Shown: positions 27,901-59,289 of the stretch, one piece after another
How positions within the stretch are numbered: the first letter of the stretch is position 1
Layout: each line of letters starts with the position of its first letter
From: Babesia bovis T2Bo
Taxonomy: Eukaryota > Apicomplexa > Aconoidasida > Piroplasmida > Babesiidae
Reading direction: 5' to 3'
Length of the DNA stretch: 64,000 nt
Assembly: GCF_000165395.2 (NCBI RefSeq)
Contig: NC_010574.1
Span: 1,426,001-1,490,000, forward strand
The notes under the pieces: generated by a model
The model's database searches: none
Told to the model about the DNA's origin: nothing
Seen by the model: the letters and a program-made list of their open reading frames with translations, nothing else
Translations under genes and position numbers: made by a program

Positions 27901-29601
27901 AAATGTTTCCTCTCTAAGGCAATATACTCTACCACAGACAACTCTTGGGTAAACAAAAATACACAAAGCTGCCATTGCGCAATACCAGGATCTATACCAT
28001 GCACAGCAAAAGATATACATATTACACGAAATGACATATACAAGGATCTTATAGAGTCAGGGTTTTGCCCTACTATGAACTATAAGCAGGGTCTCTTTAA
28101 CTTAAAGAAAGGATCTACCGCACCAGATTCACTAACTTACGTATCACTGGCAAACAACAATAGGCTGCATTGCCCATTGGGTATAAATGAAGAAGTATTC
28201 ACATACACTGAGTTCAAGGGAGAAGAACTTAAAGATTACTGCCAAAGAGGGCCTATATATGCAGCCCTGAAACCAACGGTCACGCAACCTGTCACCCAAT
28301 ACGCCCATAACTATGACTGTAATACCGCAGTCAGCACAGGAAATGCAAGTAATATGGAATGTGTTAACCTTTGCAAGACATTGAGAACAAGGTGCTTATC
28401 ATACCAGGAAAAATACTTCCAATGTATCAAACAGAGACTGACGCTTGACTTCCAGTATGAGTCAGACCTGTTTACTACATACAACTGTAGACTTCCGCCA
28501 ACACTCGATGCATATTTTGATGTGGACTACTACGCATTCTATATATCCACCTTTGACAGCGAACACATGGACAAAAAGGCCTGCACTATCCTAGTGCAAA
28601 ATGCAATTCTACAGTGCGAAGCAAACGAACTTTTGGAAAACAATAACTCGTTTATATGGTGCATGGCATCTGCACTAGGTGACCTGGAACCTACAACACA
28701 AGCATCACCAAAATCACCGTTCGAAACACAACCACTGGCAGCATCACGATTTAAAGAAAAGTGTAAATTTCAACCATCACTTAAAGCGGGAAGTGGATAC
28801 GTCATGTGCAGATTCCCAGCAGAAATGCCAACGTACGCTAATTGGGACGAATGGTCACCATGTACAGCACAGTGCAATGAATTTGATAGTGTCGCAACGA
28901 GATATAGAACAAGAAAACTAATAGATGGGAAAGAAACGGCATTCTACCACATAGAGGATGGTACATTACAATTTGAAATGTGCCTGCACCTGCCAGGGTG
29001 TGAACAGGGAAGGTGGGTAGACAGCCTAAATGATGGCGACGGTAAAATACATATATTGGACCACGAAGCATATAAAGATACTAGCAGCGAAACAACGAAT
29101 ATATGGCTGGAACAAACATACATGCAACACCCGGAACTAAGAAATGCCGTTGGTAAAAATGCAAAGTGTCATATTTTTAAATCGCATAAAATATTATCGT
29201 CAAAGGGGGTAACCTGTGGATGCCCTAGAGGACATAAAGCATGCTCTTTCACAACCGCAATGACAGATCAACTGTGGAAAATGGGAATGCACAACTTCTG
29301 TAGAGATCGACCATTGGCATCCATACGATTCGAAGGAGAAACAAGCGACTATGTCTACCATTGTAAAATCGGAATGCTGCTGAAACATACAGCAGAAAGC
29401 GGCGCACTGGGATGCGATTATTATGACAACAACGAATACGTAGCATGCGAAGAAACAGAAAGTAAACCACTCATCCTGAGATCAAAACACTTCACCCTGA
29501 TGGGTGTATGCCTAGGAATTGTCTTCTGCCTGTATACGACAATACGACACATCCTGAAGAAACGACGTATACGCATTAATGAACAGAAAAAAGACGAATA
29601 A
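24988..29601 (+). CDS. Large secreted type I membrane protein with thrombospondin type 1 repeats (paralogue A)
   Basis: A single-exon frame of 1,537 residues. It starts with a signal peptide (MNILLIFTLLTFSPSAAQ), is cysteine-rich throughout, and ends with a membrane segment (FTLMGVCLGIVFCLYTTI) and a 16-residue basic cytosolic tail. Thrombospondin type 1-like modules are visible at about residues 605-655 (SQWEEWGSCSLDC), 665-710 (TQWTDWGHC), 830-885 (WSEWSGCSTAC) and 1280-1330 (WDEWSPCTAQC). A poly-Glu tract near residues 770-790 separates the N- and C-terminal halves. A Cys-rich unit containing CKELCLRKANLC-like or CVNLCKTLRTRC motifs recurs. No von Willebrand A domain is seen, so it is not TRAP/MIC2. 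The tail has no C-terminal Trp of the TRAP type. It is a paralogue of the 31418-36018 gene. A role in adhesion or gliding is inferred only. Confidence 0.88.
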   Translation: MNILLIFTLLTFSPSAAQRTRTHDNVYCNHTVLKDTGTLSVQQCKELCLRKANLCKSDTGTTHTGTTVGSIPVDVNCFNIKHEDLSPNCIFSFQANVKADMQVASGITKIRSRARKTVTFKRVPKPVVFAQVLTGIDNPQHGHIVVHDIQETAAVLGVESVTNIDDDTEYDGEFYVAWFVIGDDNMFKDFGSYHVHLVKENLNGPGYRNVVVKKNPKTTEKWPSNIALFAQSQAPNIDITAKLTVGEQININITAKNNDRETLTSGRRAPMDVALLLVDLDHFKDGNVVEFGNMAITSPITKFDGGMLNLNVAELKQPLVFFTPYYNRSHEQHPRATCWSDGSTKESTNFKCKVEPETMVTPPYTGKLNVAFLAVEKMSEDDQKLYLQFQYNQCATAYATANATSDSEPILRMKPEDMLCKDRCFQYRAPCNGNVNCIQSYLGGKCSIEGVKYMKHEQKQKSHIFMDAIRLLNFEIRGAVCTGMYDAVSIDSVMERHSDWAGAAMDICVHNQQRDKVMVVIDEHVSFNFCEAHMGMRVQLKWQPLSELKDKYTKDGKPLPLKEVFKDKIVYGICQYQDKVEIKQYHPYPETVYEEDDLEPTNADCVESQWEEWGSCSLDCIPENGEVVKKRSRYIIRPAYGTGKKCVTEETKQCTLKELPSCNEVCLITQWTDWGHCINYQRKRERYVMHYSKVCDSMVLTETQVCVVNDVLPGWDDEDDVDGQDYDASMPLHRLGIHDADTRFKRKRSRPAAYPTRRRHSSSSSEGEEEMEDEGEDEKEEEEEEEEEEEEEYVDASDTFDDPSAGEETEDLYSAFKDIEDDSMHDESDDRSKQQTDCLLWSEWSGCSTACDDTIGHQYRISSTCDAHNTYELNRNVQSRRCTATNQCEIGGKINCLDVRSVFYSEADDQTCREECTQLLQICKDNEEVNETLCFARLKAESADAGGFFFKCMFPEERESTIALMHSLFKNKCFLSKAIYSTTDNSWVNKNTQSCHCAIPGSIPCTAKDIHITRNDIYKDLIESGFCPTMNYKQGLFNLKKGSTAPDSLTYVSLANNNRLHCPLGINEEVFTYTEFKGEELKDYCQRGPIYAALKPTVTQPVTQYAHNYDCNTAVSTGNASNMECVNLCKTLRTRCLSYQEKYFQCIKQRLTLDFQYESDLFTTYNCRLPPTLDAYFDVDYYAFYISTFDSEHMDKKACTILVQNAILQCEANELLENNNSFIWCMASALGDLEPTTQASPKSPFETQPLAASRFKEKCKFQPSLKAGSGYVMCRFPAEMPTYANWDEWSPCTAQCNEFDSVATRYRTRKLIDGKETAFYHIEDGTLQFEMCLHLPGCEQGRWVDSLNDGDGKIHILDHEAYKDTSSETTNIWLEQTYMQHPELRNAVGKNAKCHIFKSHKILSSKGVTCGCPRGHKACSFTTAMTDQLWKMGMHNFCRDRPLASIRFEGETSDYVYHCKIGMLLKHTAESGALGCDYYDNNEYVACEETESKPLILRSKHFTLMGVCLGIVFCLYTTIRHILKKRRIRINEQKKDE

Positions 29602-31417: not shown

Positions 31418-34400
31418 TCATACAAAAGATGAACGTTTGTACGTGTACACAAAGATGATCGTCGACGTGAGACCACCTAATACAGCAGAAAGTACCGTGA
31501 AAATGTACAAACTCCTGCTTTTAGGTACACCGTAGCAACTGACAAAAGAAGTGTTACCTCCCTCGTTACACAATTCATTGTGTGCGTCAAAGTCTTGGCG
31601 CAAAAAACTGCGTGTCAGACAACTGTAACGATAGAAACCCGTGGGTTGATTGAACAATACAGAACGCATCTCGTTTTCCCGGCACAACAACTGCAACATG
31701 TCAAACCACCCAAACGAATGTACAGATTCCATTACAGAACACGGGGTTGTATTTGTTGGACATGAGCAACTGCTTTTCTGCGTATTTTGTAGGCAACGAT
31801 GTTTTAAGACATACCTGATAGATAATGTTGTTTTTAGTAACATCACGCTGGCCACTGTAAAGAGTGCAGTGATGGTCTACACTGCTCTCACCCTGACGTG
31901 AATCGTTCAGAACCCATCCCTGTAGGTCCCAAGTACTCTCTATCACCTGTTCACGAGCCAAATGTGAACGATGAGTTGAAATCTCTTTACGAATCGCAGG
32001 GTCATCAGGACATTGGGGTAGCCAAAGACAATCTACAGTCTCTTTCAAAACAACGCCCTTTGAGATACACTCATCAATGTTAACCCCGTTAGTTACCTTT
32101 AAACGCCGCGTACGCGTCCTGCTGGGCATAAATACTCTGCCGTCCCTAACGTAAATGCATGTTTGAGAACAGAGACTCCATTGACTCCAAGGTTCAGTAT
32201 CACAAATTAATTTGCGCTTCTTACAATACACTAAACCAGCACCCATCAGCTTGGTACGCTTAAAGACACAGTGTAAACCAAATTCAACCTTTTGATCAGC
32301 TTTCATGTTAACGTCATTGTATTTTACATGATCTAAGATGCATCGTCTAATCTTGGCCTCACGGGAATGCTCCAGCAATGTCTTGCACATATTGACTAAA
32401 CGACGGCACAACATAGTGCATTGGCGTGTTAACTTGATGTTTTTCTCAACAATATCACACATCTCCGCCTCCGTGAGAGCTGAAGTGGTCAAAGGGTCAC
32501 TACATCCATTGAATTTGTGATTTAACACAAAAATATTAGTGGGAAAATGACGAATACGGTCACTTACACAGCGACCAATTTCGGCTATATGGACCGCTGG
32601 TATATCAATTTCACATGTCCTACGCATGATTTTGCAACGATCCTGACAATGAAAATCATGACGATAGTCATATGACACAGCCAAACGACAGTCAACCCAT
32701 AATATATCCTCAGCAAAGTTGTTTAACTCAACATTACCAGTTGCGCAATAATTGTCAATATCACCTTGCTTGAATTGGTCGTAAGCTACATCCCTCACAA
32801 CGTCAGTTGGTAATTCTATGCGGTGGTAATTGGCCAATGATATATGCAACTGATAAGGAGTTGCTCGCACCAAGTGTTCTAAGTAACCTTCATTGTCAGT
32901 AGAAACGAGCTCAGTGGAATCACCCAAAACATGTACCTCTTCAGCAGAACATGCAACACCGTCTTCACACATACAGGCTCCATCCTTACTCCAACTTCCT
33001 ATAGAAACATCATAAAATGAGTAATTCAACACGCAAGTATTGTAATCGGGTTTAGATTTCAACTCTTCTTCTGTCGGGCATACATGAAGCTTGCGCCTAC
33101 AAGGACGACGGTGGTCGTAACATACAATCGGCACACGTAAGTACTCAGTGATGGTATCGTCTATCTTCTTTGCACACGGGGCATTACACGCAGACCAGTT
33201 GTTAGGATCTTCACAACGTTTGTCGTATCGATCAGAGTTGGTAGTACCAAATTGGGCCTGTGCTTCCGGAAGACCGGGACGATTTTGCGTAGTTCCCATA
33301 CGCGTAACAATAGCTGATTCATGCTTAGATCCAGGAATAAACTGGAAATTCTCCTTTTCAACGTCGTGATCAGCGTAAATATCTACGCACTTATCAGACC
33401 AGATGTAAAAGTATTTCTGCTGGAATACATTAGGATCGCCTGATCCTTCACGAGAATAACAAAACTCAGAACACGGTGGTACATTTGTACATTCCCGGGT
33501 TTCAACAGTCGAACATGATGAAGAAGTCAGACCGACCTTGTTTGCATATACAGGACGTCGACGGGTCTGTACTGTTGCAAGTCTTCCCGATGAACATTTG
33601 TTGCTACATGCTGACCATTCACCCCAAGGACCTGGAATGCAATCACGATCCATAACGATTTCACCGTCATAATATGAATCTGTATGACGATCGTCAACTT
33701 TCGCTGGGCTATTATTTGTTTTCGATTCGTCCCCATCATCAGCTGGATTCTCTGGTTCTTTATTGCCTGGGTTATTCATACCAGAATCTATATCTCGTTT
33801 TTTCATAAATGTAATGTACTGGTTGATCAGGCTATTCATGCCAGGTGCTTCTATGACACACTGCGGGCGTTTTTTATGAAAGCATTCAATTAAGTCATCA
33901 TCGTATATGCAACTCTGTATACCATCGGCGCTAAGACAGCTGTCGTAACAACTACGACTTAAATGTCGATAACCCTTCTTCTGTGAATATGTACAAATTT
34001 CCTCTGCCATGGCACTACCCATATCCTGAATAACAAAACCAAATACACGAGTCATATGTAACCTATGTGTTGCCAAAATGGCAACGATAGTAATATCAGT
34101 TGAAAAATCATAATTTAATGCCTCCGAACTCACAGCAGGAGCTTCTCCAAAGACATTTAATCGTAATGAAGCAGAGGGCAGATTTTTTTCATCTTGTTCC
34201 TCCCCTTCCAAACATACTTTGACATAAGAAAAAACATTCTTAGGATAAGGCCACGTATACGGCAAACTTAATGAAACTTTAGCCACGCCACGGAAATCTG
34301 GTTTTTCATCAAATGTCATTATTCTCAACCTATGTAATCGAATTTCACGACGATTCTCTATTGCCAGATAGCCAAGTTTTATCGTTTGGGGCGATGATTT

Positions 34401-36018
34401 CCCCAATTCGTTAACAACAAAATGAACTCTGTAATTTCTCTTGCCTTTTACAAGTATTGGAATATGTATAGAAGCGGTCTGACCATTATCTCTATCATTT
34501 GTATGGTTTGTGTCACCCTGATTCTGTAATATTACAATCCAATTGCGCAAAGGATCAATCGGCAGTCTCACATGTCCATCTGTGTTGCAGCTAACAACCC
34601 CCGCTCTTATACTATTGTTTGGATCTGGAGAATGATCACCTTTGCTAAGACCAATCCATTGTATTGTATGCTTTACATCACTATGTATTTTAACGCAATA
34701 GATAGTGCAGCTTAGCATATAGCTGGTTATCCAGAACCCAGTTGAAGACACATCTGAGACTTCGACATGCAATAGATCGTGGTCTGTCTGAGGAGTTGAT
34801 GTATAAATTATAGGGCTATCTATGGGATTAGTAAACTTCACTTCAGTCCATGTACCATTGGTAACTTCCACTTCGTTGATTTCATACTCTGTTATCGCTC
34901 GATATGGTTAATATGTATCACTTACTGGGATCGAAGTATTCTTCCGCATATTGTAAATCATGCATGTCCACCTGATCTACAAAATGTAGGCAACATATCG
35001 GGCACCTTACCAAAAATATATCTACATCTTTGATCAAAAACATTTGTCTTAAACAAGCTGGCCACACATTTAAGTCGTTCCAATCTTGTCAGAGGCATAC
35101 TAGAATCAGTACATTGCTTCATAAAGTGCATACAAGTATGCAAACAAAAGGTTCTATCATCTGGTGATATGGCATTGAATAGGATGCAATCGAAAGCATG
35201 AACTACATAGTGATAAAATGTATAAAGATCCAGCTAACCCTTTATACAGAAATGCTCTAATAACTTCACGTTCCACCGTTGTCTACACGGACCTAGTAGT
35301 TTATACTTAATGGAACAACTGTTGTGATATCCACATCGATCCCATGCCAATGTGGTGAATACCCTAGGTGTTGTAATGCACTGAGCAACAGCATCGAGGA
35401 ATCCAATCACATGACCGGAAGGGCAACTAACGTTCAAACTACTGTTGAGTATGTATTTCCTCTCGGATACTTCATCTAAACTTGTACGTTGTGGATCTGA
35501 GTATTATATCATCTCATTTGTTTGTTGTGCTCTTTTGAAAATAATACATTATATATCAAATGAAATATATACCAATGCAATCATATTATAGAAGAAATGT
35601 CTGAATTGATCATACCTTTATCTGGTGACACCGGAGCATCTGGTGATTTTGGAGTAACGGGATCGTCCTGTCCTGGCGGTGGTGTTATTGCTTTATCACT
35701 GCTGTTATCATCAAAAGTTAAACGGGTGGCGTCAGCTTCATCCGTGTCTGGCAATTTCGGCGCCTTCACCCTTGAGGCGATTGCAACCAAATCCTTGTAA
35801 CGCGATCTCACTTTATCGAATGGATTACGAAATAATGTCAAACTGTTATATCATCTCTTATAATAAACACGCACCGACCTCGGTTTAGAAGAGGTAGGTG
35901 CAGGGGGTATTGGAGCACATACCACATGAGTGATACCTATTCCATGGTACTTATGGAAAAGGAAAAGCGTCACTATAGCAAGTGATAGCCTAACATTGAA
36001 TGGTGAATTAAGTCTCAT
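31418..36018 (-). CDS. Large secreted type I membrane protein with thrombospondin type 1 repeats (paralogue B)
   Basis: About 1,450 residues in seven exons. ATG 36018 encodes a signal peptide (LSLAIVTLFLFHKYHGIG). A Pro/Asp-rich exon follows, then one (about 35246-35505) with CPSGHVIGFLDAVAQCIT and GPCRQRWNVKLLEHFCI. This resembles a SUEL/galactose-binding lectin fold. Exons of 34-37-base introns (for example 34889-34925 and 31778-31814) lead to a main exon of about 3 kb. TSP1-like modules there include PWGEWSACSNKC, NNWSACNAPC and PWSQWSLCSQTC. The C-terminus has a membrane segment (LYIFTVLSAVLGGLTSTIIFV) and a tiny basic tail. The long frame appears to start at 34871, but that codon is GTG and the frame is spliced upstream. 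Architecture and many Cys motifs match paralogue A. Confidence 0.83.
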
Positions 36019-47393: not shown

Positions 47394-49190
47394 CTAGAAT
47401 CTCGTAGGCTTTAGCATGTCATTCCATTGACGGCGCAAATTTGATGGCCTCTGTAAATTGAGTGTGATACTTGCTCTAACACGCCCTTCTTTATCGAGAC
47501 AACGGCACATGAGCTCTACTGAAGAGTATCGTATATGATCCCGGTTACTCGTTGACGTATGGAAATCCGCAACCTTTATATGCCGCCCTTCCAATGCTCT
47601 GGCCAGTGGTTCGAAATCAGATAGTGGCACCACGACCTCCTTATCTTTGTGAAGCATCTCACTGAAGCAGTTGGGTGGCTCCAGCACGAAACCTTCAGGA
47701 CAGTAAAATCCAACAGGACTAGATAAGTAAGGATTGACCTTGCAATGCGTAACCTTCCGACCTCTCCCTTCTTGTTTCAACTGAAATCCAGTGTCTCTAA
47801 ATAAATCGGCACTATCAACACCACAACCATAGGTATAGGGATCTGTAGGCATAATGTTGAACCCTACTTTCAGTATTCCGTTGACAGCGACTTCACCAGG
47901 AACACCATTGACTTTCCAGTTGTAAAACATAAATGGTGTGTTTGATTTCAAAACTAGCAATGCATCATCAGCATACTTGACTTTGTAGACCATTTTATCT
48001 TTAACCTTAGTGTATGTTATATCAACTCCCCTGGAACCAATAAAATCCTTGATTGGGGTAGGCGGGTTCGATTCTACAGGCAATCCATTGAAAGCGGTGG
48101 TATCAGGATTTGTTGGTCTGAGTTGACCTGTGACCTTTCTTCCACGAGATAGAAACACCTCACCGTCCGGAACATACTTTACCGTAATATTGTTACCAGG
48201 ATTCATGTTCATTATCACCTCCTTGATCGTTGGCATCAGATCCGCCTTCATATTATTGGTTTGTTTCGATGCATTAACTACAACATTCCCTAGCATGTTT
48301 ACATATAGGATTCGCGTTGTTTTGTCATAAGCACCAACGCATGCGCAACTCAAGTCAACAGAATTAGGAAGTTGGCCATCATGCACTTTAAACAGTCTAA
48401 ATCTCGTGGAAAGTGTACTTGCAGGATTAGCGTTTGCAGCGAATTTTGGTATATATGGCGTGATTGCTCCGTTGTAATCTGATAATTCTTCATCAGAGAA
48501 GCATTCACCTGGGTCTAAACGTTCTCCAGCCTTACAATATATACCAAAAATCATCCCAGGTTCAATGTCAACAGAACATGAGGCAATTTGCAGATTTAAA
48601 ATATTTGGAATTATAGGCCTACTGTTTTTAAACAACATATTATTTCCTGTCTCACAACCATATGCCATAGGGTATACAGCTTCGAATTTGATAGTGACCC
48701 ATTTGTAAACTGGAGCATTGCTACCATCCTTGGATTGATACTTGCAAGCAAAGTTGAGACTAAAGTTCTCAGGATCCTTAGCCATGATCAATGTATCCAC
48801 AGTCCTAGAAATCTTCACAGAAACTGGGACGTCCTTGGCCTTCTTCACCTCAAAATTCAAGTCGCTGCTACGATAGAAACTATGTGAAGCCACCTCCTTC
48901 TCAACAGCACTGGTGAAATCGTTGCCTTCCGGTGGCAGCAACATCTTGCTCACAGGGTCACTGGGATACATTGTATGTTCCACATCTTCGTCCCTACCAT
49001 TGCCACAGGTTATCACCACCTCCTTTGGACCTGCCACAATAACCTCGTTAACAGAAAAATCGTCATACTGCTTGTTATTATGCGACAAATCTAAATGAAT
49101 GCTTGGGGTGGCAGTGGCTATTAAAAGATTTTTGCAAAAAACTATAAAGCATGCCAACGCTAGCCTATTTAATGTGTTTTGGATATCCAT
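47394..49190 (-). CDS. 6-Cys (s48/45) surface protein, array copy 1
   Basis: 6-Cys proteins are apicomplexan secreted or surface proteins, in Plasmodium active in gamete fertilisation and host interaction. This 598-residue single-exon copy has a signal peptide (LNRLALACFIVFCKNLLIATA). Its first s48/45 domain has Cys in VVITCGNG, NFACKYQ, AYGCETG, SCSVDIEPG, GIYCKAGERLDPGECF and LSCACVG. The second domain has YGCGVDSADLF, THCKVNP, FYCPEG, NCFSEM and LMCRCLD. No hydrophobic C-terminal tail is present (ends LRRQWNDMLKPTRF), so no GPI or TM anchor is predicted. Bases 48623-49117 are identical to copy 2 and 47492-47744 to copy 4. The middle, about residues 200-450, is unique. Confidence 0.93.
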   Translation of the reverse strand: MDIQNTLNRLALACFIVFCKNLLIATATPSIHLDLSHNNKQYDDFSVNEVIVAGPKEVVITCGNGRDEDVEHTMYPSDPVSKMLLPPEGNDFTSAVEKEVASHSFYRSSDLNFEVKKAKDVPVSVKISRTVDTLIMAKDPENFSLNFACKYQSKDGSNAPVYKWVTIKFEAVYPMAYGCETGNNMLFKNSRPIIPNILNLQIASCSVDIEPGMIFGIYCKAGERLDPGECFSDEELSDYNGAITPYIPKFAANANPASTLSTRFRLFKVHDGQLPNSVDLSCACVGAYDKTTRILYVNMLGNVVVNASKQTNNMKADLMPTIKEVIMNMNPGNNITVKYVPDGEVFLSRGRKVTGQLRPTNPDTTAFNGLPVESNPPTPIKDFIGSRGVDITYTKVKDKMVYKVKYADDALLVLKSNTPFMFYNWKVNGVPGEVAVNGILKVGFNIMPTDPYTYGCGVDSADLFRDTGFQLKQEGRGRKVTHCKVNPYLSSPVGFYCPEGFVLEPPNCFSEMLHKDKEVVVPLSDFEPLARALEGRHIKVADFHTSTSNRDHIRYSSVELMCRCLDKEGRVRASITLNLQRPSNLRRQWNDMLKPTRF

Positions 49191-49601
49191 GTTAGGTATT
49201 TAAATTCTACAATAAATTCGATTAATGGAGTGTTTAATTAGTGCCACCATAACTATATTATTTTCTTTGATGAATCATCTGTGATCTTCAAGGCCGCTTA
49301 TTATTGCAGTGGTGCATCAATATGGAATATATTGGCTCATAGGTCATCTTCCTATTTTACAAGGTTCCTATGGGATGCTCTTGAGGATCTCCATATATAC
49401 ATGATCTGTGGCGTTGTCTTATGTGCCAAATAAAAGAAATTCGTACCTAGAATATGAACGCATGTGAAATGTGACATTACTTTATGAGCTTAGTAACCAT
49501 AGACTTTGAGAATGTGAAATCTCTTATGAATTCCTCAGAAACATTTGTCATTAAAATAATTACAAAGATTAATTTGGATTACAGCCACTTATAGATGTGG
49601 T
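49191..49601. other. Spacer between 6-Cys copies 1 and 2
   Basis: 411 bases, AT-rich, no reading frame of note. It should contain the promoter of copy 1 and the 3' end of copy 2. Confidence 0.4.
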
Positions 49602-51386
49602 TTAATCAGCGTACTCCTCTATAACCTCAGAATCCATGGGATTCCTAAGGTCGAGCACTATTCTTGCTCGCACTTCACCATTCTTGTCTCTACATCTACA
49701 ACTCAACATATCCTTGTTATATATTATCTCCTTTTTCATTTTCTTTGGCAAATTAAAATCGACGATTCTTATGTTCTTCGACTCGACGGTTCTGGCAAGA
49801 GGTGCGAAATCAGATAATTTTACCTTTTCATTATTTGTTGCATTAATCATCTCTTCAAAACAATTGGAAGGTTCCAGTGTATGATCTTTGGGGCAGTAAA
49901 ATCCAACAGGACTAGTTAAATAAGGATTAACCTTGCATTCAGTCACATCTTCATCTTCTGTATTTGTTGATAGTTTAAACCCATCCTTTCGGAATAGGTC
50001 AGCACTATCAACACCACAACCATAGGTATAGGGATCAGAAGGTAATATATTGAGCATCAATGTGAAAGTATATTCCCTTATTTTGGTTGTAAACAGTGGA
50101 GTTAACAACCATTGAATATACATAGAAGGCGACTCAGTTTTAGCAACGAGAGTAGAATCCTTTTTATAGTTGAACGTATATTTCATTTTTCCTTTATACT
50201 TCGTGTAAGATATTCCCACGCCATCATAGCCAATAAACTGACGAAGCCTTGAGAGAACAAACGGGGATGAACCCAAACTATAGTAAGCATTATATGTTAG
50301 ATTTGACGGGAATATTCTACCAGACACCATACCAAATGAACCCAGTTTAAATGTTCCACTTAAAGGAATATTAAAACCATTTTTAGATCCAGGTTCCAAA
50401 TATTCCATCCTATGGAATACACTCGCATCATTTTTATCAGCAGTACTCAATAAACGATAAAAATCAATACTTTTGTTAACCAATTTCTTTATTGTTATTT
50501 TACGAGTTATTCTTTCCTTATTCTGACAATAACAATGAATATTTATATTCTTTACAATCTCATTGGGCGACACCTGGAATAGTTTAAACCTCGGGGATAA
50601 TCTGCTCATACTTCTGTAGACAGTTGGAGACCATGGTAAAGAATAAGAAGAAATAGCATGGTTCATCTTCTTGTAGTCATCATCATTGATACAATTTTTA
50701 GGCCAAATCCGTTCACCCTTTTCACAGAATATACCAAATAACATGTTCGGTTCAAGTGTGATTAGACACTCCTCTTCTACATCATCATGATTCAACCAAT
50801 CTAGTTTCGGTATTGTGTTTTTAAACAACATATTATTTCCTGTCTCACAACCATATGCCATAGGGTATACAGCTTCGAATTTGATAGTGACCCATTTGTA
50901 AACTGGAGCATTGCTACCATCCTTGGATTGATACTTGCAAGCAAAGTTGAGACTAAAGTTCTCAGGATCCTTAGCCATGATCAATGTATCCACAGTCCTA
51001 GAAATCTTCACAGAAACTGGGACGTCCTTGGCCTTCTTCACCTCAAAATTCAAGTCGCTGCTACGATAGAAACTATGTGAAGCCACCTCCTTCTCAACAG
51101 CACTGGTGAAATCGTTGCCTTCCGGTGGCAGCAACATCTTGCTCACAGGGTCACTGGGATACATTGTATGTTCCACATCTTCGTCCCTACCATTGCCACA
51201 GGTTATCACCACCTCCTTTGGACCTGCCACAATAACCTCGTTAACAGAAAAATCGTCATACTGCTTGTTATTATGCGACAAATCTAAATGAATGCTTGGG
51301 GTGGCAGTGGAACATAGAGATGATGTTGTTAAGAAAACACTTAGGAATGTTATCGAGAATATATTAAGTAAGTTTAATTGCGACAT
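49602..51386 (-). CDS. 6-Cys (s48/45) surface protein, array copy 2
   Basis: 594 residues from ATG 51386 (MSQLNLLNIFSITFLSVFL signal peptide); the frame is open six bases upstream but begins with TTG. The first domain up to MLFKN is base-for-base identical to copy 1 over 50816-51310, whereas the signal peptide is unrelated. The middle is distinct and Lys-rich (CYCQNKERITRKITIKKLVNKS). The second domain carries YGCGVDSADLF, TECKVNP, FYCPKDH, NCFEEM and LSCRCRDK. Bases 49800-49928 are identical to 52736-52864 of copy 3. It is single-exon and has no C-terminal anchor (ends DSEVIEEYAD). Function beyond the family is not visible. Confidence 0.93.
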   Translation of the reverse strand: MSQLNLLNIFSITFLSVFLTTSSLCSTATPSIHLDLSHNNKQYDDFSVNEVIVAGPKEVVITCGNGRDEDVEHTMYPSDPVSKMLLPPEGNDFTSAVEKEVASHSFYRSSDLNFEVKKAKDVPVSVKISRTVDTLIMAKDPENFSLNFACKYQSKDGSNAPVYKWVTIKFEAVYPMAYGCETGNNMLFKNTIPKLDWLNHDDVEEECLITLEPNMLFGIFCEKGERIWPKNCINDDDYKKMNHAISSYSLPWSPTVYRSMSRLSPRFKLFQVSPNEIVKNINIHCYCQNKERITRKITIKKLVNKSIDFYRLLSTADKNDASVFHRMEYLEPGSKNGFNIPLSGTFKLGSFGMVSGRIFPSNLTYNAYYSLGSSPFVLSRLRQFIGYDGVGISYTKYKGKMKYTFNYKKDSTLVAKTESPSMYIQWLLTPLFTTKIREYTFTLMLNILPSDPYTYGCGVDSADLFRKDGFKLSTNTEDEDVTECKVNPYLTSPVGFYCPKDHTLEPSNCFEEMINATNNEKVKLSDFAPLARTVESKNIRIVDFNLPKKMKKEIIYNKDMLSCRCRDKNGEVRARIVLDLRNPMDSEVIEEYAD

Positions 51387-52540
51387 TTTCAATATGGAAG
51401 GTTAATGAATCTTTCTTTACAATAACATATATGCTGATAATTTTACTATAATGTCGATTTAAAACAACCATGTTGTTGATTCATGGCTCAACGTGCTTTT
51501 TGAGCCTAGACAACATTCACGTCAAGTTTGTTATATCTTTAACTATCATAATGCTGTTTATAGGTAGGCTGCATATTTAACTGAATAACAAATAAATGCC
51601 ATATATTATTTCCAAATTTTGGAATCAATATTTTCTAGAATCTATATTATTAAGGATATCTTTCATCAATGAATGTGGTTAATGGCAATTTTAGTGTTCA
51701 TTATAATATTAAATTATTGCAACTATATGATTCAAATTCTCGGGGAAATAAAAAATGATCCAAAAGATTGAATTCAACTGAATAACAGTATAATCAGTAA
51801 ATCATTTTTACAAGAAGTTTTGTTGATTTTATGAATCCACTCAACAGAACATATTATAATCATTCAACATAATATCGATGGATAATGTTTCCATTTCATG
51901 CATAGAAGTACTACCATTGATTCGTTTAGAGGTACCCTGAATGTAAGAGGATTGTATAAATGCGCATAATTACATTTTATTGGCAATCATAGTAACGATT
52001 TTTCAGGCATAAGAAGTCTGATATCAGAAAGAAGGTAGCTCTACCCTTTCGTTATAACTAAAGCATGGACAATTTTCTACCGTTTAATTTACGGATTCCA
52101 TAAATTTAATGACATAAAAATGTTAATAAAACTAACCTATAATCAATAATAGTGATATCAGTAGTATAGTTTAAATTTACAACAGCAACTTCTAATAAAA
52201 ACATTAACCGGATATAGCCCTCCATAAAAAAGCTTCGTTTTATATGTTGCCATAGCGATATGTCAACAAATATCAACACAATAACATTATCTCATTTTAT
52301 CGCATTATAGTACAAGTATTTTACCAGAAGATGGCTGGCCTTTTGGGGTTCTAAGTATCAATTACAAAATAATCCTAATGACGGCATTTATATCTTTACG
52401 TTTATGGTTCAATGCATATATAATGATGCCTGGGATGGTTATAATCTCCTATGTAGATGTGGCCTAAAGAAAATAAATTTTTACATTAGGTTACAAAACT
52501 GTTATTATACATATTACGTGTTGCATCGGCAAACAGATTA
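51387..52540. other. Spacer between 6-Cys copies 2 and 3
   Basis: 1.15 kb of strongly AT-rich sequence without supported frames on either strand. No remnant of a 6-Cys motif (YGC, FYCP) was seen. It is one of the largest spacers in the window. Confidence 0.45.
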
Positions 52541-54316
52541 CTAGGCGTATTCACCAATAACTGCAGGGTCCATTGGGTTACGGAGATCAAGGGTAATGAC
52601 AGCTCGTGTGTTACCCTCTTTGTCAATGCAGCTGCATTTTAGTTCTGTATCAGTGTATTTTGTGTCCTTTTTCATACGGGGCGACATGTGGAAGTCTGCA
52701 ACCTTCAAATTCGTACTCTCAACCGACCGGGCAAAAGGTGCGAAATCAGATAATTTTACCTTTTCATTATTTGTTGCATTAATCATCTCTTCAAAACAAT
52801 TGGAAGGTTCCAGTGTATGATCTTTGGGGCAGTAAAATCCAACAGGACTAGTTAAATAAGGATTGATCTTGCATTTTGTAATGCTAACGTGTTCCTCTTG
52901 CTTAGATATTTGGAAGCCATCAGTCCTGAACAGGTCGGTGCTTTCCACTCCACAACCATAGGTGTAGGGATCTGTTGGCATGAGGTAAAATAGGAGTCTC
53001 ATGTTAGCGTCTACCCGAACGCCATGGTGACGTTTAAGAACCCAATCATAATATAAGAGAGGAGTGTCTACCTTAAGAACCACGATACCGTTGCTTCGGT
53101 AAATGAGACTACGAATTCTATCAGGACCCATGACTTTAGTCAATACGTCGAAGTGCTTTGATCCAAAGATATCATTGAAATGTAAAGCGTCATTATACCT
53201 ATAAGGATTCCCCGTGTATATTTTTTGAAAATTAGTAGGTACCATCCTCTGTCTGACTTTCCCTAACAGTCCAACATCAAGCCAATCACGCCAAGGTGCA
53301 ACAACGTGGTACATCATCCCTGGATATAAGTTGTAGACGACGTACCTTGTTTCCTGTGGATGAGTTACATGTTGCGCCATATATTCCTGCGGCAGGATAT
53401 GACTATGGATATGGTTCACTATGCTGAGTACTTTTGTAGATCCTTGTGGACCTTGGCAGTAACAATGGTGATAGAAATGTGTTCTGACTCCCTTATCTGA
53501 CACTACAAATAGTTGAAACCTAGAATTTATCTTCCTACGACTATCGTAAAATTCGGTTTCATTTGCATAAGGTGTAATGTCACCATTCAACTCTTGCAAT
53601 CTTTTCCCGGGAAAACAGTGATCAGGCATTAATTGCTCCCCCGGTTTACAATATATACCAAAAATCATACCAGGTTCCAAGGTTAATGAACAATCAACTC
53701 TGTCAACGTCTGAAACTTTAAACCCTGGTACAAATGGTGCTGTGTTTTTAAACAACATATTATTTCCTGTCTCACAACCATATGCCATAGGGTATAGAGC
53801 GTCAAATCTTACTTTCAACCACCGGTAAAATGGTTTCTCATTTTTATTCCTTGGCATATATTTACAAGCAAGGTTGAGACTAAAGTTTTCAGGATCTTTG
53901 GCCAACAGAACTCCATTTATACCGTAATGTATATTTATATAATTATCTTCATGGCCACCTCTGGAAAACTTTATAGTTAACCCATCACTTCGAAATCTAT
54001 CCCGTAAAGCAACCTCTTTCAGAACAGCAGATTCAAAATCTTCGTCCTCAATGGGCAACAATAATCGCTCTTGCGGATTGCTGGGATACATTGTATACGC
54101 ACCTTCGGGATCTTTACCTGATCCACATACAAAACTTAAATGAGCACCTGGTGCCAAATATGTTTCATCTTTTACAAAACTTTTGTCATCCCTTAAAGAA
54201 GGAAGTGATGGTGGGTTTACTGCACCGGCTAACCATCGTGGCATGCTGCTATATATGGTAAAGATGGTAACACCATATACCAACAATGGTATGTTGGAAA
54301 CGCGAAGTTGTTTCAT
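52541..54316 (-). CDS. 6-Cys (s48/45) surface protein, array copy 3
   Basis: 591 residues. The signal peptide is the hydrophobic stretch IPLLVYGVTIFTIYSSM, ending near WLAGAV. Domain 1 has FVCGSGKD, NLACKYM, AYGCETGNNMLFKNT, DCSLTLEPG, GIYCKPGEQLMPDHCF and HCYCQGP. Domain 2 has YGCGVESTDLF, TKCKINP, FYCPKDH, NCFEEM and LKCSCID. About 55 bases around 53742-53796 match copies 1 and 2 (the YGCETGNNMLFKN segment), and 52736-52864 is identical to copy 2. Its middle region is unique (RYVVYNLYPGMMYHVV). There is no membrane anchor. A spacer of 1.1 kb separates it from copy 2. Confidence 0.93.
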   Translation of the reverse strand: MKQLRVSNIPLLVYGVTIFTIYSSMPRWLAGAVNPPSLPSLRDDKSFVKDETYLAPGAHLSFVCGSGKDPEGAYTMYPSNPQERLLLPIEDEDFESAVLKEVALRDRFRSDGLTIKFSRGGHEDNYINIHYGINGVLLAKDPENFSLNLACKYMPRNKNEKPFYRWLKVRFDALYPMAYGCETGNNMLFKNTAPFVPGFKVSDVDRVDCSLTLEPGMIFGIYCKPGEQLMPDHCFPGKRLQELNGDITPYANETEFYDSRRKINSRFQLFVVSDKGVRTHFYHHCYCQGPQGSTKVLSIVNHIHSHILPQEYMAQHVTHPQETRYVVYNLYPGMMYHVVAPWRDWLDVGLLGKVRQRMVPTNFQKIYTGNPYRYNDALHFNDIFGSKHFDVLTKVMGPDRIRSLIYRSNGIVVLKVDTPLLYYDWVLKRHHGVRVDANMRLLFYLMPTDPYTYGCGVESTDLFRTDGFQISKQEEHVSITKCKINPYLTSPVGFYCPKDHTLEPSNCFEEMINATNNEKVKLSDFAPFARSVESTNLKVADFHMSPRMKKDTKYTDTELKCSCIDKEGNTRAVITLDLRNPMDPAVIGEYA

Positions 54317-54771
54317 TGTTGCTAAATTAGACCACCGTCCATAGAATCATACCAAAATGTAGTTTGAGTGTTGTTTGAATCCTTGTTAGTATGTTTCATT
54401 TAGCGGATTCGAAATTGAACATTCACAGTTGAGTCTAGACATGTGATTTATAGCATGAAGTTACCACAATGATTTTGTGTCCTACTATAACAGATATTAA
54501 AACTATTCGCAGCTTGTTGGTTTTTAAGTCGCGATTGAAGTATATAACAGGCATATCTGCTTTTATCATTATTATTTTAAATAACTATTAATTTTATATA
54601 GGGAAGAGCATATTATTTTATACTCTTACTCGTTGCGAAATATGGCGTGTCCATGCTCATCGCTGTTTTAATGAAGTTTATTTAGAATTCATGATACTAT
54701 ATTTATCAAGCACACCGCATGCTAACAAATGTGCCTGATATGTAAAGCCAATCCCTATCATTTTGTATTTA
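54317..54771. other. Spacer between 6-Cys copies 3 and 4
   Basis: 455 bases, AT-rich, no gene seen. Likely the promoter of copy 3 and the 3' end of copy 4. Confidence 0.4.
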
Positions 54772-56610
54772 TTAAAATGCTTTATTGATGTTCCCCAGTT
54801 GCCTTGTCCTCGGTTTACGAAGGTCTAGAGTTATGCTGGCATGTACTTTCCCTTCTCTATCGAGACAACGGCACATGAGCTCTACTGAAGAGTATCGTAT
54901 ATGATCCCGGTTACTCGTTGACGTATGGAAATCCGCAACCTTTATATGCCGCCCTTCCAATGCTCTGGCCAGTGGTTCGAAATCAGATAGTGGCACCACG
55001 ACCTCCTTATCTTTGTGAAGCATCTCACTGAAGCAGTTGGGTGGCTCCAGCACGAAACCTTCAGGACAGTAAAATCCAACAGGACTAGATAAGTAAGGAT
55101 TGACCTTGCATTTAGTTACAGGCACTTGATCATATTCGAATGATAAGAGAAATCCTTCTTTATGAAATAGATCAGCACTATCAACACCACAACCATAGGT
55201 ATAGGGATCTGTAGGCACTATATACATAGCCAGCGCTAAACCTAAATGCGTACGAGCATTGTTTCTGCTGTCTAGCATAACCCAACCGTATGAAATTACT
55301 CTGTCAGGCTTTTTTAGAACGACAATGCCATTATCGTCGTATACAAATCTATAACTTACACCATTGTACAGTTCTGTTCTTCCAACGTAAAACCCTTTAC
55401 TTCCAATAGCATCGCTCAACGGTATCTCAACTAGTTTACCGTCATCAGCAATCATTCCAATATCCTGTACGGCATTCTTAGGTGATATCCAACCATATGC
55501 CTCTTCACCATTGCGTAGTTTTATTGAACTGTTGTTAACCAAAAATGTAAGATGCATTCCTGGGGAAAGTATATATGATAGTAAATATGGTGGCTTGTTC
55601 AAACTTACAATGCCACGATTCACCAGATTCATAATGTTTACTTCTGCATTCTTAGGCTTTTCAATTATTAGCTTTTTTGTCATTTTTCCGTTCCTATCGA
55701 CGCACGAACAGGATATAGGAGCTTTTTTGTCAAAATCATGGCTAAGCTTGATAAGCCTGAATCTTTCCGGGAATTCCTGATACGGAAAATCGGGGTCAAT
55801 ATAACTCTTATTGAAGCGGATGGTGAATCCTTGGGCATCTAAAACAGCTTCTTGGAAACATCTTGAAGGATATAAATGGTCTCCTGGCTTACAATAAATG
55901 CCAATAATCATATTTGGGATGGGGTCTATATAGCAGAGTCGCCTTTGACGTTTGATACTGATTGATTCATCCTCTTGTGGTATGCCATTTAGAAACAGAG
56001 CACTATCACTACTCTCACAACCATATGCCATGGGATATACGTCATCAAACCTTACTTCTAAAAATTTGAAACTAGCTGGTTTTGTATCATCATGAGGTTG
56101 GTACTTACAAGCGTAGTTGAGTGTAAAGTTATCTGGCCTTTTAGCCATGATAACGGCACTACTTGGATATTTAATTCGTAATCTCGTGCCATTGTGTTCA
56201 TCCTCGTACGACGATATGATATCTACATCACTACGAAATATATTGTGGTTAGGAAGTTCATGAGCAAGTCCTTTTGTTCCTTCGTACTCACCTTGAGATG
56301 GTAAGGTGTATTTTAAGGGGTTTTTTGGAAAACGTTCAACGGTTCCGTTTTTGAATATATCATCTGATCCACAAGTGAAAAACAAAGTATCTCCCTTTTC
56401 AAGTCGAACCACTTGATGTAGATTGTCACCAGGATTCAAATCAGTTTCATTGGAGAAGAAGTCTACCCTATTGGTTTTCCCTGTTTTTTGTGACGTTGTT
56501 ACATGAGATAGAGTGATATTTTCTACATTGGAAATCTTTAGCAATGTGAATAACAAGGAAAATGTAAATAGGCTTAAATATGAGCCATTTTGGTGGAGTT
56601 GTGACACCAT
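54772..56610 (-). CDS. 6-Cys (s48/45) surface protein, array copy 4
   Basis: 612 residues from ATG 56610 (MVSQLHQNGSYLSLFTFSLL); the frame upstream contains only a TTG start. Domain 1 shows FFTCGSDD, NYACKYQP, AYGCESSDSALF, LCYIDPIPN, GIYCKPGDHLYPSRCF and ISCSCVDR. Domain 2 shows YGCGVDSADLF, TKCKVNP, FYCPEG, NCFSEM and LMCRCLDR. Bases 54858-55110, most of domain 2, are identical to 47492-47744 of copy 1, although copies 2 and 3 lie between them. Outside that block the protein is well diverged. The C-terminus (ends RQLGNINKAF) has no anchor. Confidence 0.93.
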   Translation of the reverse strand: MVSQLHQNGSYLSLFTFSLLFTLLKISNVENITLSHVTTSQKTGKTNRVDFFSNETDLNPGDNLHQVVRLEKGDTLFFTCGSDDIFKNGTVERFPKNPLKYTLPSQGEYEGTKGLAHELPNHNIFRSDVDIISSYEDEHNGTRLRIKYPSSAVIMAKRPDNFTLNYACKYQPHDDTKPASFKFLEVRFDDVYPMAYGCESSDSALFLNGIPQEDESISIKRQRRLCYIDPIPNMIIGIYCKPGDHLYPSRCFQEAVLDAQGFTIRFNKSYIDPDFPYQEFPERFRLIKLSHDFDKKAPISCSCVDRNGKMTKKLIIEKPKNAEVNIMNLVNRGIVSLNKPPYLLSYILSPGMHLTFLVNNSSIKLRNGEEAYGWISPKNAVQDIGMIADDGKLVEIPLSDAIGSKGFYVGRTELYNGVSYRFVYDDNGIVVLKKPDRVISYGWVMLDSRNNARTHLGLALAMYIVPTDPYTYGCGVDSADLFHKEGFLLSFEYDQVPVTKCKVNPYLSSPVGFYCPEGFVLEPPNCFSEMLHKDKEVVVPLSDFEPLARALEGRHIKVADFHTSTSNRDHIRYSSVELMCRCLDREGKVHASITLDLRKPRTRQLGNINKAF

Positions 56611-57441
56611 GTTGCAAAAACATGTTATGAAGTTGTGTCCTGTAGCATAATATGTGAACAATTAGGTACCATGAAGATTTAAATCACCTGTTGCGATTCA
56701 TGTTGTGTAAGGAGTCAAAATTTTTCGTAGGCTATTAAAAGAAAAAATCAAAACAATCAATCCAATTCGGATTTTAATAGTAATGTTTATGATTCTCTAA
56801 GAGCCAGATTTCGTCCAATGGGATGATGAATTGTCTATACTCATTGGGACGTATTTTAGAAAATACATCATAGTCACTTGAACCACCACGGTACTACATT
56901 CGGCATGTTGTATTCCACTGCTGAGCAATTTTTATGGTTGCTTATAGCAATTTTGCTAGACTGCTAAAGAATGGCATATGATCATATGAGTTATATTTAG
57001 GTATAGTCAAAACGACATCTTCATATTCTTCAATGCCACACGCATGTATGTTCGGTTTATGCATTCGACGTAATTTTCCAGCTTGAATTTAGATACATTG
57101 ATTTTAACATTGACATAAACTGTAGTTAAAGAGAGTAGCTTTAACGTTAAAGTGCCAGGGATAGATAACCGGAAATAACAGACTGCTTGTAAGAAATAGA
57201 CAAGAATAATCTATTATAAGCATGCAGATATCAAACATAAATTGTCTTCCTCAACATATTGCTCGTTTTATAATGATTTGCTATGCTCGTATGCTGTCTG
57301 GCCATACACTAATAGAAAGGGCAATATTTGCACAGTTACAGTTGAATAAATGAATATTTTACGTAAGACTAATTACTACATATTACAATATTGCCTTAAC
57401 TTTTACAGCTATAAATGGGCATTTGTAAGTTTTTAATCTTC
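56611..57441. other. Spacer between 6-Cys copies 4 and 5
   Basis: 831 bases, AT-rich, no supported frame and no recognisable decayed 6-Cys copy. Likely the promoter of copy 4. Confidence 0.4.
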
Positions 57442-59289
57442 TTATTTATCACGTGGCCTACCTAGGTCAATGGTAATAGTGGCCATGACGGTACCATCTC
57501 TACGACGGCATCTACATTGTAAAGATTCTTCTAAATATTTTTTCGTATATTTCACCGATTTAGGACCGGTGAAATCAATGATCCTTAAATTGGGGGAATT
57601 TAACACACGCCCTTGAGGAGCATATTCATCTAAGCGAACTACGTGATTAGTGGAGACCAAATACGCACTATTAAAGCAATCCGCTGGCTCTAATACATAC
57701 TGCTTTGGGCAATAGAAACCTATTGGGCTATTTTTCCAGGCATTCAAAGTACATTTGACTTCTGTATGGTAATGTGCTCCTTTTTGAATATGTTGATTAT
57801 TAAATACAACTCCTTTTGTATTGAAAATGTCCGGATTCTCTGCACCACATCCATATGTATAAGGATCAGTTGGTACAATGTCAATAGTGATCATCGTATT
57901 CTTTTTCGTCAGAGGTCCCGAAAATCGGTCATAGTATTCATAAAGATAAGATAGACTGGCAATCCGTCGCTTCATAACAATAACAGAGTTTTCAGTAGTA
58001 GAGAATTCAAAGGTGTAGTTGTTAATGTTTTCAATCTTGTTCATTTTTAATCCAACATATCCTATTATACGATTGATCCTTATTTCTCTTAAGTGGGACA
58101 TGTTCGTAGTAGGGTTGTATGCTACGACACCAAAGTTTTCTGGATATAATAACAGACCACCAGCATCATTTCTATGATTGGCAATGCCATCCGATTTTGG
58201 AATGATAATTTTAATAACTTTATTAGTTGACAACGTTTTACGACATACCTTACGGGGCCAATTTCCATATCTGCGGTATATATCCATAATTTGGACAAAA
58301 TCGCACGTTTCCGTTTTTCTTAGGTTAACCTTCATGATTGATGTGATTTTATCGTCTTTGTTTCTGCATTGGCATGAAAAGGACATATCATGATTAAAAG
58401 CCTTGGGACTTAATTTCATAAGCCTCATATTACCATCAATCAGGTTGTGAGGGAAACTGTACTCCCGAAATTGATTGAACATAATTCTCTTACCATCCAT
58501 CCCTATTACCTGACGGAAGCAGTCATCAGGGTATACATAATCATCCTTTGAACAATATATACCTAGTATCATATTTGGTTCTGCTTCTATTTCACATTGA
58601 GCCGCTTCTAAAACTTTATCATGTGGCGTATCCGGGCCTATGGGTATTGAATTTTTAAACATATGATAACCAGCGCTGCCACAGCCATATGGTATGGGTA
58701 AAACATTTTTGAAGTTGATTTGCAACCAACGGAATTTTGCTGAGCCATTTACATCTGAAGGTATAAAAATACACAGCAGATTCAAGCTAAAATTCTTATT
58801 GTCTTTCGCTACAATTTTGGTGTCACGGGCGTAATCGATGAGCAGGTGGTCAAGTCCCATACTTCGGAAGGTACTTATCACCAATTCCCTATCCGAACGG
58901 TAGATGGTGTGATTAGGATAAACACGATTTGATGCTACATCTACTGGTTCATCCCCTTTCGGAAGTAGAATATGGGTTTTGGGGTTAGAGGGATGTAACA
59001 TAAATGTTCCCATAGTAGAGGACGCTTCTTTTCCACACGAATATTTCAAAGAGTCTCCTGGGTATAAATCTACAACTCGTAAAATATCATCCTCAGGCTC
59101 GAAATCTTCCGGCTTAACATACTGGATTGTTTTGGCTTCGAATACATACTCATTTACGGCTCTGAATGCATTAGTGATTGTATCATTAATACCCTTAGCG
59201 GCATACACTCCGTCCGTTGCATTGTGGAACAGTGCCAACGCAACAGCAGCTGTAATCAGCGTGGTATTGTGTACGATATTTCGCTTCAT
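57442..59289 (-). CDS. 6-Cys (s48/45) surface protein, array copy 5
   Basis: 615 residues from ATG 59289 (MKRNIVHNTTLITAAVALALF signal peptide). It is the most diverged copy. Domain 1 has KYSCGKEA, NLLCIFIP, PYGCGSAG, QCEIEAEPN, GIYCSKDD, DDCFRQ and FSCQCRN. Domain 2 has YGCGAENPDIF, KCTLNAW, FYCPKQ, ADCFNS and LQCRCRRR, plus two extra Cys (TCDF, VCRKT) between the domains. No long blocks are identical to other copies, so it seems to have escaped conversion; it may approximate the founder or have a separate role. The C-terminus (ends TIDLGRPRDK) has no anchor. Confidence 0.92.
   Translation of the reverse strand: MKRNIVHNTTLITAAVALALFHNATDGVYAAKGINDTITNAFRAVNEYVFEAKTIQYVKPEDFEPEDDILRVVDLYPGDSLKYSCGKEASSTMGTFMLHPSNPKTHILLPKGDEPVDVASNRVYPNHTIYRSDRELVISTFRSMGLDHLLIDYARDTKIVAKDNKNFSLNLLCIFIPSDVNGSAKFRWLQINFKNVLPIPYGCGSAGYHMFKNSIPIGPDTPHDKVLEAAQCEIEAEPNMILGIYCSKDDYVYPDDCFRQVIGMDGKRIMFNQFREYSFPHNLIDGNMRLMKLSPKAFNHDMSFSCQCRNKDDKITSIMKVNLRKTETCDFVQIMDIYRRYGNWPRKVCRKTLSTNKVIKIIIPKSDGIANHRNDAGGLLLYPENFGVVAYNPTTNMSHLREIRINRIIGYVGLKMNKIENINNYTFEFSTTENSVIVMKRRIASLSYLYEYYDRFSGPLTKKNTMITIDIVPTDPYTYGCGAENPDIFNTKGVVFNNQHIQKGAHYHTEVKCTLNAWKNSPIGFYCPKQYVLEPADCFNSAYLVSTNHVVRLDEYAPQGRVLNSPNLRIIDFTGPKSVKYTKKYLEESLQCRCRRRDGTVMATITIDLGRPRDK

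Follow-up and report, generated by a model that had tools for sequence, protein, structure and literature searches.

How can neighbouring genes be identical over hundreds of bases, with different parts pairing different neighbours, and yet lie close to synonymous saturation in between? This question is raised by five tandem genes of the 6-Cys family in a 64,000-nt stretch of the Babesia bovis T2Bo genome (bases 1426001-1490000 of contig 2, in a genome of 8.23 Mb in eight contigs), the whole of which is called here the window. Adding 1426000 to the window positions of these genes gives exactly the coordinates listed in Table 1 of PMC5036836 for Bbo 6-Cys A-E, and the array is the published set of subfamily-1 genes BBOV_II006600 to BBOV_II006640, referred to below as A to E. 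In B. bovis, genes A, B, C and D have shared DNA locally, repeatedly and in register after speciation, in the outer domains of the encoded proteins, and the same sharing is apparent at the protein level in four more Babesia species. Very probably, this reflects conversion limited to the two outer domains, A1 and B2, with the B1-A2 core between them spared.

An earlier note, made from the DNA letters of the window, had described a five-copy 6-Cys array at 47394-59289, and five two-module genes occupy exactly this span, all of them intact, single-exon and arranged head to tail on the minus strand. The five proteins match the s48/45 profile (PF07422) in two stretches each, with 57.8-82.5 bits against a cut-off of 24; this is the sole Pfam family above its own cut-off in A to E, and no membership of the ves family was found for them. 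The sequence profile matches Pfs230, Pf12 and Pf12p. An AlphaFold2 model of protein A built on 26 rows (predicted local distance difference test, pLDDT, 79.6; predicted template modelling score, pTM, 0.50) suggests four beta-sandwich domains in the order A1-B1-A2-B2, with limits near residues 175, 300 and 450, and in this model the tandem A-B beta-sandwich fold of the 6-Cys family is present. Residues 30-301 and 297-585 each align to a tandem Plasmodium 6-Cys domain pair, with a high root-mean-square deviation, and residues 300-451 alone align to Pfs230 D1 at 3.2 Å; the first domain is thinly covered by rows, and Toxoplasma SAG proteins score nearly as high in the structure comparison. Both B domains carry six cysteines each in all five proteins, and of these 12 positions 10 are invariant across the 26 rows and one is nearly invariant.

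The codon alignment of the five genes contains eight perfect blocks of at least 25 nt, formed by the pairs A-B (495 and 35 bp), A-D (253 and 43 bp), B-C (129 and 56 bp), A-C (54 bp) and B-D (38 bp). Thus, the three pairings named by the earlier note, of copies 1 and 2, 1 and 4, and 2 and 3, are all present as the three longest blocks. The 495-bp block covers A1 and the start of B1, and the 253-bp block lies within B2, where it sits in 371 columns of 91.4% identity; the 129-bp block sits in 249 columns of 83.9% identity, and the patches of 35-56 bp fall on the two conserved B-domain starts. As had also been foreseen, the uncorrected synonymous difference (pS) is 0.00 inside the blocks and mostly 0.5-1.0 elsewhere in 40-codon windows, with lower values outside wherever such a window overlaps a block or patch. 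The signal peptide lies outside the A-B block in B. bovis (pS 0.69). A GENECONV-like permutation test of the kind proposed at the outset (1372 polymorphic sites, 2000 permutations) gave a longest run of 23 for any pair in any permutation, and the observed runs of A-B (375), A-D (174), B-C (80) and A-C (26) were each reached in 0 of 2000. The B-D run of 12 is non-significant across all pairs (711/2000), and by the same test there is no significant run for C-D or for any pair with E. The proposed five-copy mosaic therefore holds for A, B, C and D and fails for E, and its local homogenisation stands, with the correction that the affected parts are more aptly seen as the outer pair in a protein of four domains than as the ends of two.

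The blocks lie in register within coding sequence, with homologous but strongly diverged sequence on either side, and no block reaches into the flanks of the gene copies. A repeat scan of the whole window (at least 80 nt, ungapped) returned four families, all inside the A to E genes. Since the flanks are distinct on both sides, gene conversion would be the molecular route. The A-B block holds 99 synonymous sites without a change, so that its synonymous divergence (dS) is below about 0.030; the average between-strain dS reported for A and B is 0.0376 and 0.0488, respectively (PMC5036836), and at these values the probability of zero changes is 0.024 and 0.008, which is suggestive of an A-B exchange younger than the average strain split. 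The same probabilities are uninformative for the A-D block (0.122, 0.065) and the B-C block (0.381, 0.286).

The history of the copies can be approached through relatives. Protein searches returned 22 proteins from a collection with one representative per 90% cluster, and the alignment, including the five of the window, holds 22 subfamily-1 proteins from eight Babesia species and one from Theileria annulata. The latter (P0021) was excluded from all trees and counts, the B. ovis protein P0022 (450 aa, start missing) was excluded from the A1 tree, and P0001, P0002, P0004 and P0015, being B. bovis alleles or the window's own protein, are not tree rows. Parts for the trees were cut at the B. bovis block limits. 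In the tree of the core (B1 and A2), A pairs with ovi_480, B with ovi_490 and D with ovi_520 of B. ovis, and the B. bigemina proteins big_540 and big_570 pair with ova_8 and ova_7 of B. ovata, each with support 100/99. Pairing across species at this level implies that these paralogues had separated before the species did. For the first domain, identity is 100% between A and B and between the two B. bigemina genes, and 99% between the two B. ovata genes, against 23-34% in B1 and A2 of these same three pairs. The A1 identity of A and B is 100%, as compared with 42% for A and ovi_480 and 48% for B and ovi_490; for B1 and A2, the respective values are 31 and 23% for A-B, 37 and 37% for A-ovi_480, and 38 and 45% for B-ovi_490. 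In the last domain the tree joins A with D (100/97), B with C (94/92), the three B. caballi genes (99/98) and the two B. ovata genes (98/97), and the last domains of the two B. bigemina genes are identical.

In approximately unbiased (AU) tests, the core rejects all six within-species pairs tried, namely A+B (p 1.3e-5), A+D (2.6e-48), B+C (0.0018), the B. bigemina pair (9.3e-67), the B. ovata pair (4.5e-56) and cab_050+cab_030 of B. caballi (1.0e-4), and the last domain rejects A+ovi_480 (p 0.0077) and D+ovi_520+cab_030 (2.4e-4). Identical rows removed six AU groupings, four in A1 and two in the last domain. The conflicting trees for separate parts that had been predicted are thus found. Together with the absence of synonymous change in the blocks and the permutation result they bear out the repeated local exchange that had been proposed. 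Because the cores group with their orthologues while the ends resemble neighbours in the same genome, the exchange followed speciation, which argues for gene conversion and against recent duplication.

The limits of the shared stretches recur among species. Stretches were scored with +1 for an identity and -3 for a mismatch over the 15 within-species pairs that leave out E, and 27 of them reach a score of at least 12, in 12 of the 15 pairs. None of the 27 enters the core columns 241-544. Seven of them, from B. bovis, B. ovis, B. bigemina, B. ovata and B. caballi, have their ends at columns 237-240 (LFKN plus the residues that follow); 18 of the other 20 start at columns 545-549 (PTDP) or 588-595, and the remaining two, both from B. 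caballi, are placed in the last domain, at its far end. The stretch common to the two B. bigemina genes, like that of the two B. ovata genes, starts at the first residue. A score of at least 30 is reached by 8 of the 15 within-species pairs, in five species, and by 2 of 133 cross-species non-orthologue pairs; both of the latter join B. bigemina and B. ovata in A1, as expected if A1 was homogenised within each species. Gene E compared with its own neighbours (11 pairs in four species) reaches a score of 12 in one pair, and scores of 20 and 30 in none. The 11 orthologue pairs, six of which compare E with E, yielded 24 stretches, and 7 of these touch the core. Among the 22 rows, 28 of 163 residues in A1 are private to A and B (control mean, about 0.5%), as compared with 2 of 255 core residues.

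The B-domain starts at which sharing stops also carry a 10-mer, TATGGTTGTG (minus strand), with 8 occurrences in the window against 0.28 expected, all at the two B-domain starts of A to D and none in E. This 10-mer was considered as a special DNA motif or hotspot and rejected, since it encodes a conserved Tyr-Gly-Cys and its copies have partly been spread by exchange; other invariant runs (SPVGF) are equally codon-identical. The codon is identical in A to D at 38 of 117 invariant positions (Met and Trp excluded), and the 10-mer is absent from the two stretches of the second 6-Cys array (genes F, G and H) that were examined. Its distribution probably reflects coding constraint plus exchange.

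This second array (contig 2, 298633-309191; loci L009 and L010) widens the picture. F and H share 575 bp at 100% identity, from a point near a B-domain start onwards; the stretch common to G and H has 1312 bp at 99.2% identity, about 630 bp of which lie 3' of the stop codons. Both 6-Cys arrays of this genome are thus mosaic. Several points, however, weigh against confinement of the exchange to outer domains as set out above. The tracts of the second array lie in the middle of F and H and run past the stops of G and H, so that the outer-domain rule is not general, and unequal crossing-over may have acted there. Among the 15 within-species pairs, three have no shared stretch, and B. divergens has short ones only. 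The core limits of columns 241-544 were set after the stretches had been seen; with the initial limits (columns 238-545), 5 of the 27 stretches intrude by 1-3 columns. A score of at least 12 is also found in 66 of the 133 cross-species pairs (97 stretches, 7 touching the core), which indicates that short stretches reflect conserved motifs, and those scoring 12-19 prove little. The AU groups were picked after the trees had been inspected, and the AU results are confined to the core and the last domain, the rows of A and B being identical in A1. The last domain, moreover, keeps D+ovi_520 (p 0.113) and B+ovi_490 (p 0.052), and here the case for exchange rests on DNA identity. Tests for donor and recipient point to neither copy (p 0.109-0.492), and the evidence from the other species is at the protein level.

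The layout could have arisen in other ways. If A and B had recently been duplicated from one gene, and part of D likewise, and the middle had diverged afterwards, this would suit tandem head-to-tail genes, and PMC5036836 gives A and B as the closest pair of the subfamily (53%) and suggests one ancestral gene for them. Such a duplication is nevertheless very improbable, given that core synonymous sites near saturation adjoin a block without a change, that a separate B. ovis orthologue exists for the core of A and for that of B, with A+B rejected as a clade, and that the pairing of copies changes from block to block. Purifying selection or a conserved nucleotide element could keep domains with invariant cysteines and motifs alike in protein, but the synonymous identity is pair-specific: in the A1 segment pS is 0.00 for A-B and 0.66 for A-C, and in the last-domain segment the synonymous difference is zero for A-D and 0.70 for A-B, which leaves this explanation a nearly negligible chance. 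Collapse or mis-joining of repeats, which the earlier note had named as the outcome that would undo its proposal, gains some plausibility from a single assembly with up to 495 bp of perfect identity between copies 2.2 kb apart. Against it, the blocks never extend into the flanks of the copies, and alleles that differ from the window at 25 (P0002, A), 3 (P0001, B) and 6 (P0015, D) residues carry the blocks and thus make them independent of one assembly: the A and B alleles differ at 3 of 164 residues across the A-B block, the A and D alleles at 1 of 85 across the A-D block, and P0001 at 0 of 43 from the C of the window. Moreover, proteins of four other species show a like layout, and an artefact is extremely unlikely.

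It had further been proposed that the exchange could let the parasite reshuffle its surface proteins, as would be the case if the mosaics diversified them for the bovine immune system in the manner of ves1, whose genes form mosaics by segmental gene conversion in the same parasite (PMC6630957, PMC7485966). The A allele P0002 would suit such variation, with 19 of the 25 differences falling within residues 194-330, a segment of B1 and early A2 directly beyond the block (binomial 3e-8 against an even spread, for a region picked afterwards), as would the report that antibodies to E inhibit blood-stage growth (PMC5414359). The exchange, however, makes neighbours alike, and according to PMC5036836 the ten B. 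bovis 6-Cys genes have 96-100% protein identity among five strains and a ratio of nonsynonymous to synonymous divergence (dN/dS) below 1 (0.16-0.53 for A to E), with no blood-stage transcript of the family detected in that study. The same report gives transcripts of six of the ten genes in tick midgut, with A, B and E detected in infected tick midgut, A, B, C and E in kinetes, and D in neither; all ten genes are up-regulated in kinetes, most strongly C, A, B and E (cited in PMC9806345). In PMC6630957, 6-cys is classed as a variable, not a variant, family. Antigenic variation is therefore highly unlikely, and the proposed reshuffling was not borne out. PMC8541370 lists A and B together, as well as E, as dispensable in blood culture. 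Transcription of E had been reported earlier from merozoites of another strain, a finding that the authors of PMC5036836 did not confirm; this report and the growth inhibition mentioned above stand against a tick-only view of E, which is outside the exchange. Overall, the expression data fit a role in the tick and speak against immune-driven reshuffling in cattle, less firmly so for E.

Under the favoured reading of conversion confined to the outer domains, ectopic (interlocus) gene conversion among A, B, C and D would copy A1 and the start of B1 from gene to gene, and B2 or part of it would be copied separately. Each tract would end at, or close to, one of the two conserved B-domain starts, the B1-A2 core would keep the identity of each paralogue, and a similar regime would have operated since speciation in at least five Babesia species. 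The core may carry a paralogue-specific function, such as recognition in the tick, and A1 and B2 may serve a shared job, for example with a common partner. That selection purges tracts entering the core has about an even chance in our judgement. More tentatively, and somewhat short of even, a shared shell and a private core may have lasted through several speciations, with selection-limited conversion keeping A1 and B2 matched to a common partner and B1-A2 serving separate recognition in the tick. A passive homology threshold, which competes with the selection step only, is a possibility of comparable, less than even weight: diverged cores could not pair, and the B-domain starts would be the last anchors. 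The tract edges coincide with two of the best conserved motifs, the patches of 35-56 bp sit on them, and core DNA is near saturation between copies, so that a threshold gives nearly the same picture as selection for private cores. On the other side, A1 is 27-32% identical between A and D or C and D, as compared with 23-37% for B1 among A to D, and the ends are thus not generally better matched, and the local homology reported for ves conversion in B. bovis is 2-35 bp or absent altogether (PMC7485966). Selection is preferred because the limits recur and conversion in B. bovis seems to need little homology.

Part of this was already published. The tandem array and the A-B identical stretch are found in PMC5036836, which reports a fully conserved stretch of 164 aa common to A and B, the domain identity of G and H, and, for B. 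bigemina relatives, a domain in which identity is 100%. Neither 'recombination' nor 'conversion' occurs in the text of that paper, its account reads the A-B stretch as duplication, and the parts of it consulted here do not describe the A-D and B-C blocks, the orthologous cores or the common limits. No description of conversion among Babesia 6-Cys genes was found in the open-access literature searched, a negative that is not firm; as far as seen, what appears new is that the cores are orthologous, that the pattern recurs in several species and that its limits lie in common near domain starts. One close known system is ves1 segmental conversion, likewise in a mosaic surface-protein family of this parasite (PMC6630957, PMC7485966). 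Its tracts average about 109 bp in the wild type and modify an actively transcribed locus, whereas the 6-Cys perfect blocks reach 495 bp (block length not being tract length), the genes are few and reported from tick stages, and the outcome is homogenisation of two domains. Interlocus conversion that leaves diverged regions in place is already a known phenomenon: in GOT1 of Tigriopus (PMC3728101), conversion similarly keeps parts alike while regions of high divergence persist, which can indicate selection. The 6-Cys genes differ in that their limits, found close to domain starts, are repeated across several species, and in that the ends pair different partners. Plasmodium Pf12, Pf12p, Pfs230 and Pfs48/45 are also tandem 6-Cys proteins, and A to E differ in having two modelled A-B pairs and, according to PMC5036836, no predicted glycosylphosphatidylinositol (GPI) anchor.

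These results bear on the use of the proteins. 6-Cys A and B are candidates for transmission-blocking (tick) vaccines, and antibodies to whole recombinant A and B did not block, unlike antibodies to chosen peptides, which did so in vitro (PMC8056569). A and B share one first-domain sequence and differ in the core, which matters for the reading of antibody and knockout results. The recurring limits across species constitute a natural experiment that can separate domains required to match from those required to differ, and, if the idea of a shared shell and a private core is true, natural conversion limits map function within each protein. Moreover, whole-gene matching can misname orthologues. 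In PMC9806345, BBBOND_0103540 is labelled 6-Cys D and BBBOND_0103570 6-Cys A; in the core tree, these genes (P0005 and P0006) join two genes of B. ovata instead of D or A of B. bovis, and shared ends may have misled the whole-gene matching. The gaps in numbering at BBBOND_0103550, 0103560, BaOVIS_023500 and 023510 may be further paralogues that the searches did not return.

Table 1. Features of the 6-Cys array, in positions of the 64,000-nt window.
Feature	Position	Strand	Remarks
Copy 1, Bbo 6-Cys A (BBOV_II006600)	47394..49190	-	598 aa
Copy 2, Bbo 6-Cys B (BBOV_II006610)	49602..51386	-	594 aa
Copy 3, Bbo 6-Cys C (BBOV_II006620)	52541..54316	-	591 aa
Copy 4, Bbo 6-Cys D (BBOV_II006630)	54772..56610	-	612 aa
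Copy 5, Bbo 6-Cys E (BBOV_II006640)	57442..59289	-	615 aa; outside the exchange
A1 block of A	48623..49117	-	identical to B over 495 bp; A residues 26-189 complete; pS 0.00
A1 block of B	50816..51310	-	identical to A over 495 bp
B2 block of A	47492..47744	-	identical to D over 253 bp; A residues ~483-567
B2 block of D	54858..55110	-	identical to A over 253 bp
B2 block of B	49800..49928	-	identical to C over 129 bp
B2 block of C	52736..52864	-	identical to B over 129 bp
Boundary patch 1 of C	53741..53796	-	codes YPMAYGCETGNNMLFKN; perfect match to B (56 bp) and to A (54 bp)
Boundary patch 1 of B	50814..50869	-	partner of the 56-bp patch of C
Boundary patch 2 of A	47809..47851	-	codes PTDPYTYGCGVDSADLF; identical to D over 43 bp and partly to B, over 35 bp
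Boundary patch 2 of B	49999..50036	-	identical to D over 38 bp; B-D run non-significant across all pairs
Boundary patch 2 of D	55172..55217	-	partner of the patches of A and B
Diverged core of A (most of B1 and A2)	47852..48622	-	no neighbour-shared block; orthologue: core of B. ovis BaOVIS_023480
Diverged core of B	50037..50813 (limits approximate)	-	orthologue: core of B. ovis BaOVIS_023490
Diverged core of D	55218..55985 (limits approximate)	-	orthologue: core of B. ovis BaOVIS_023520
Sites of TATGGTTGTG	47822, 48653, 50015, 50846, 52951, 53773, 55188, 56016	-	

The nearest neighbours of the array, a NopRA1-domain protein and KRR1 at opposite ends, are unrelated to it. Elsewhere in the window, thrombospondin type 1 domains occur in two large open frames separated by about 2 kb, at 24988-29601 on the plus strand and at 31701-34718 on the minus strand. 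The AT skew per 2-kb step runs from +0.09 to +0.25 over positions 1-32000 and from -0.07 to +0.03 over 32001-64000, an abrupt change in strand composition at the midpoint of the window.

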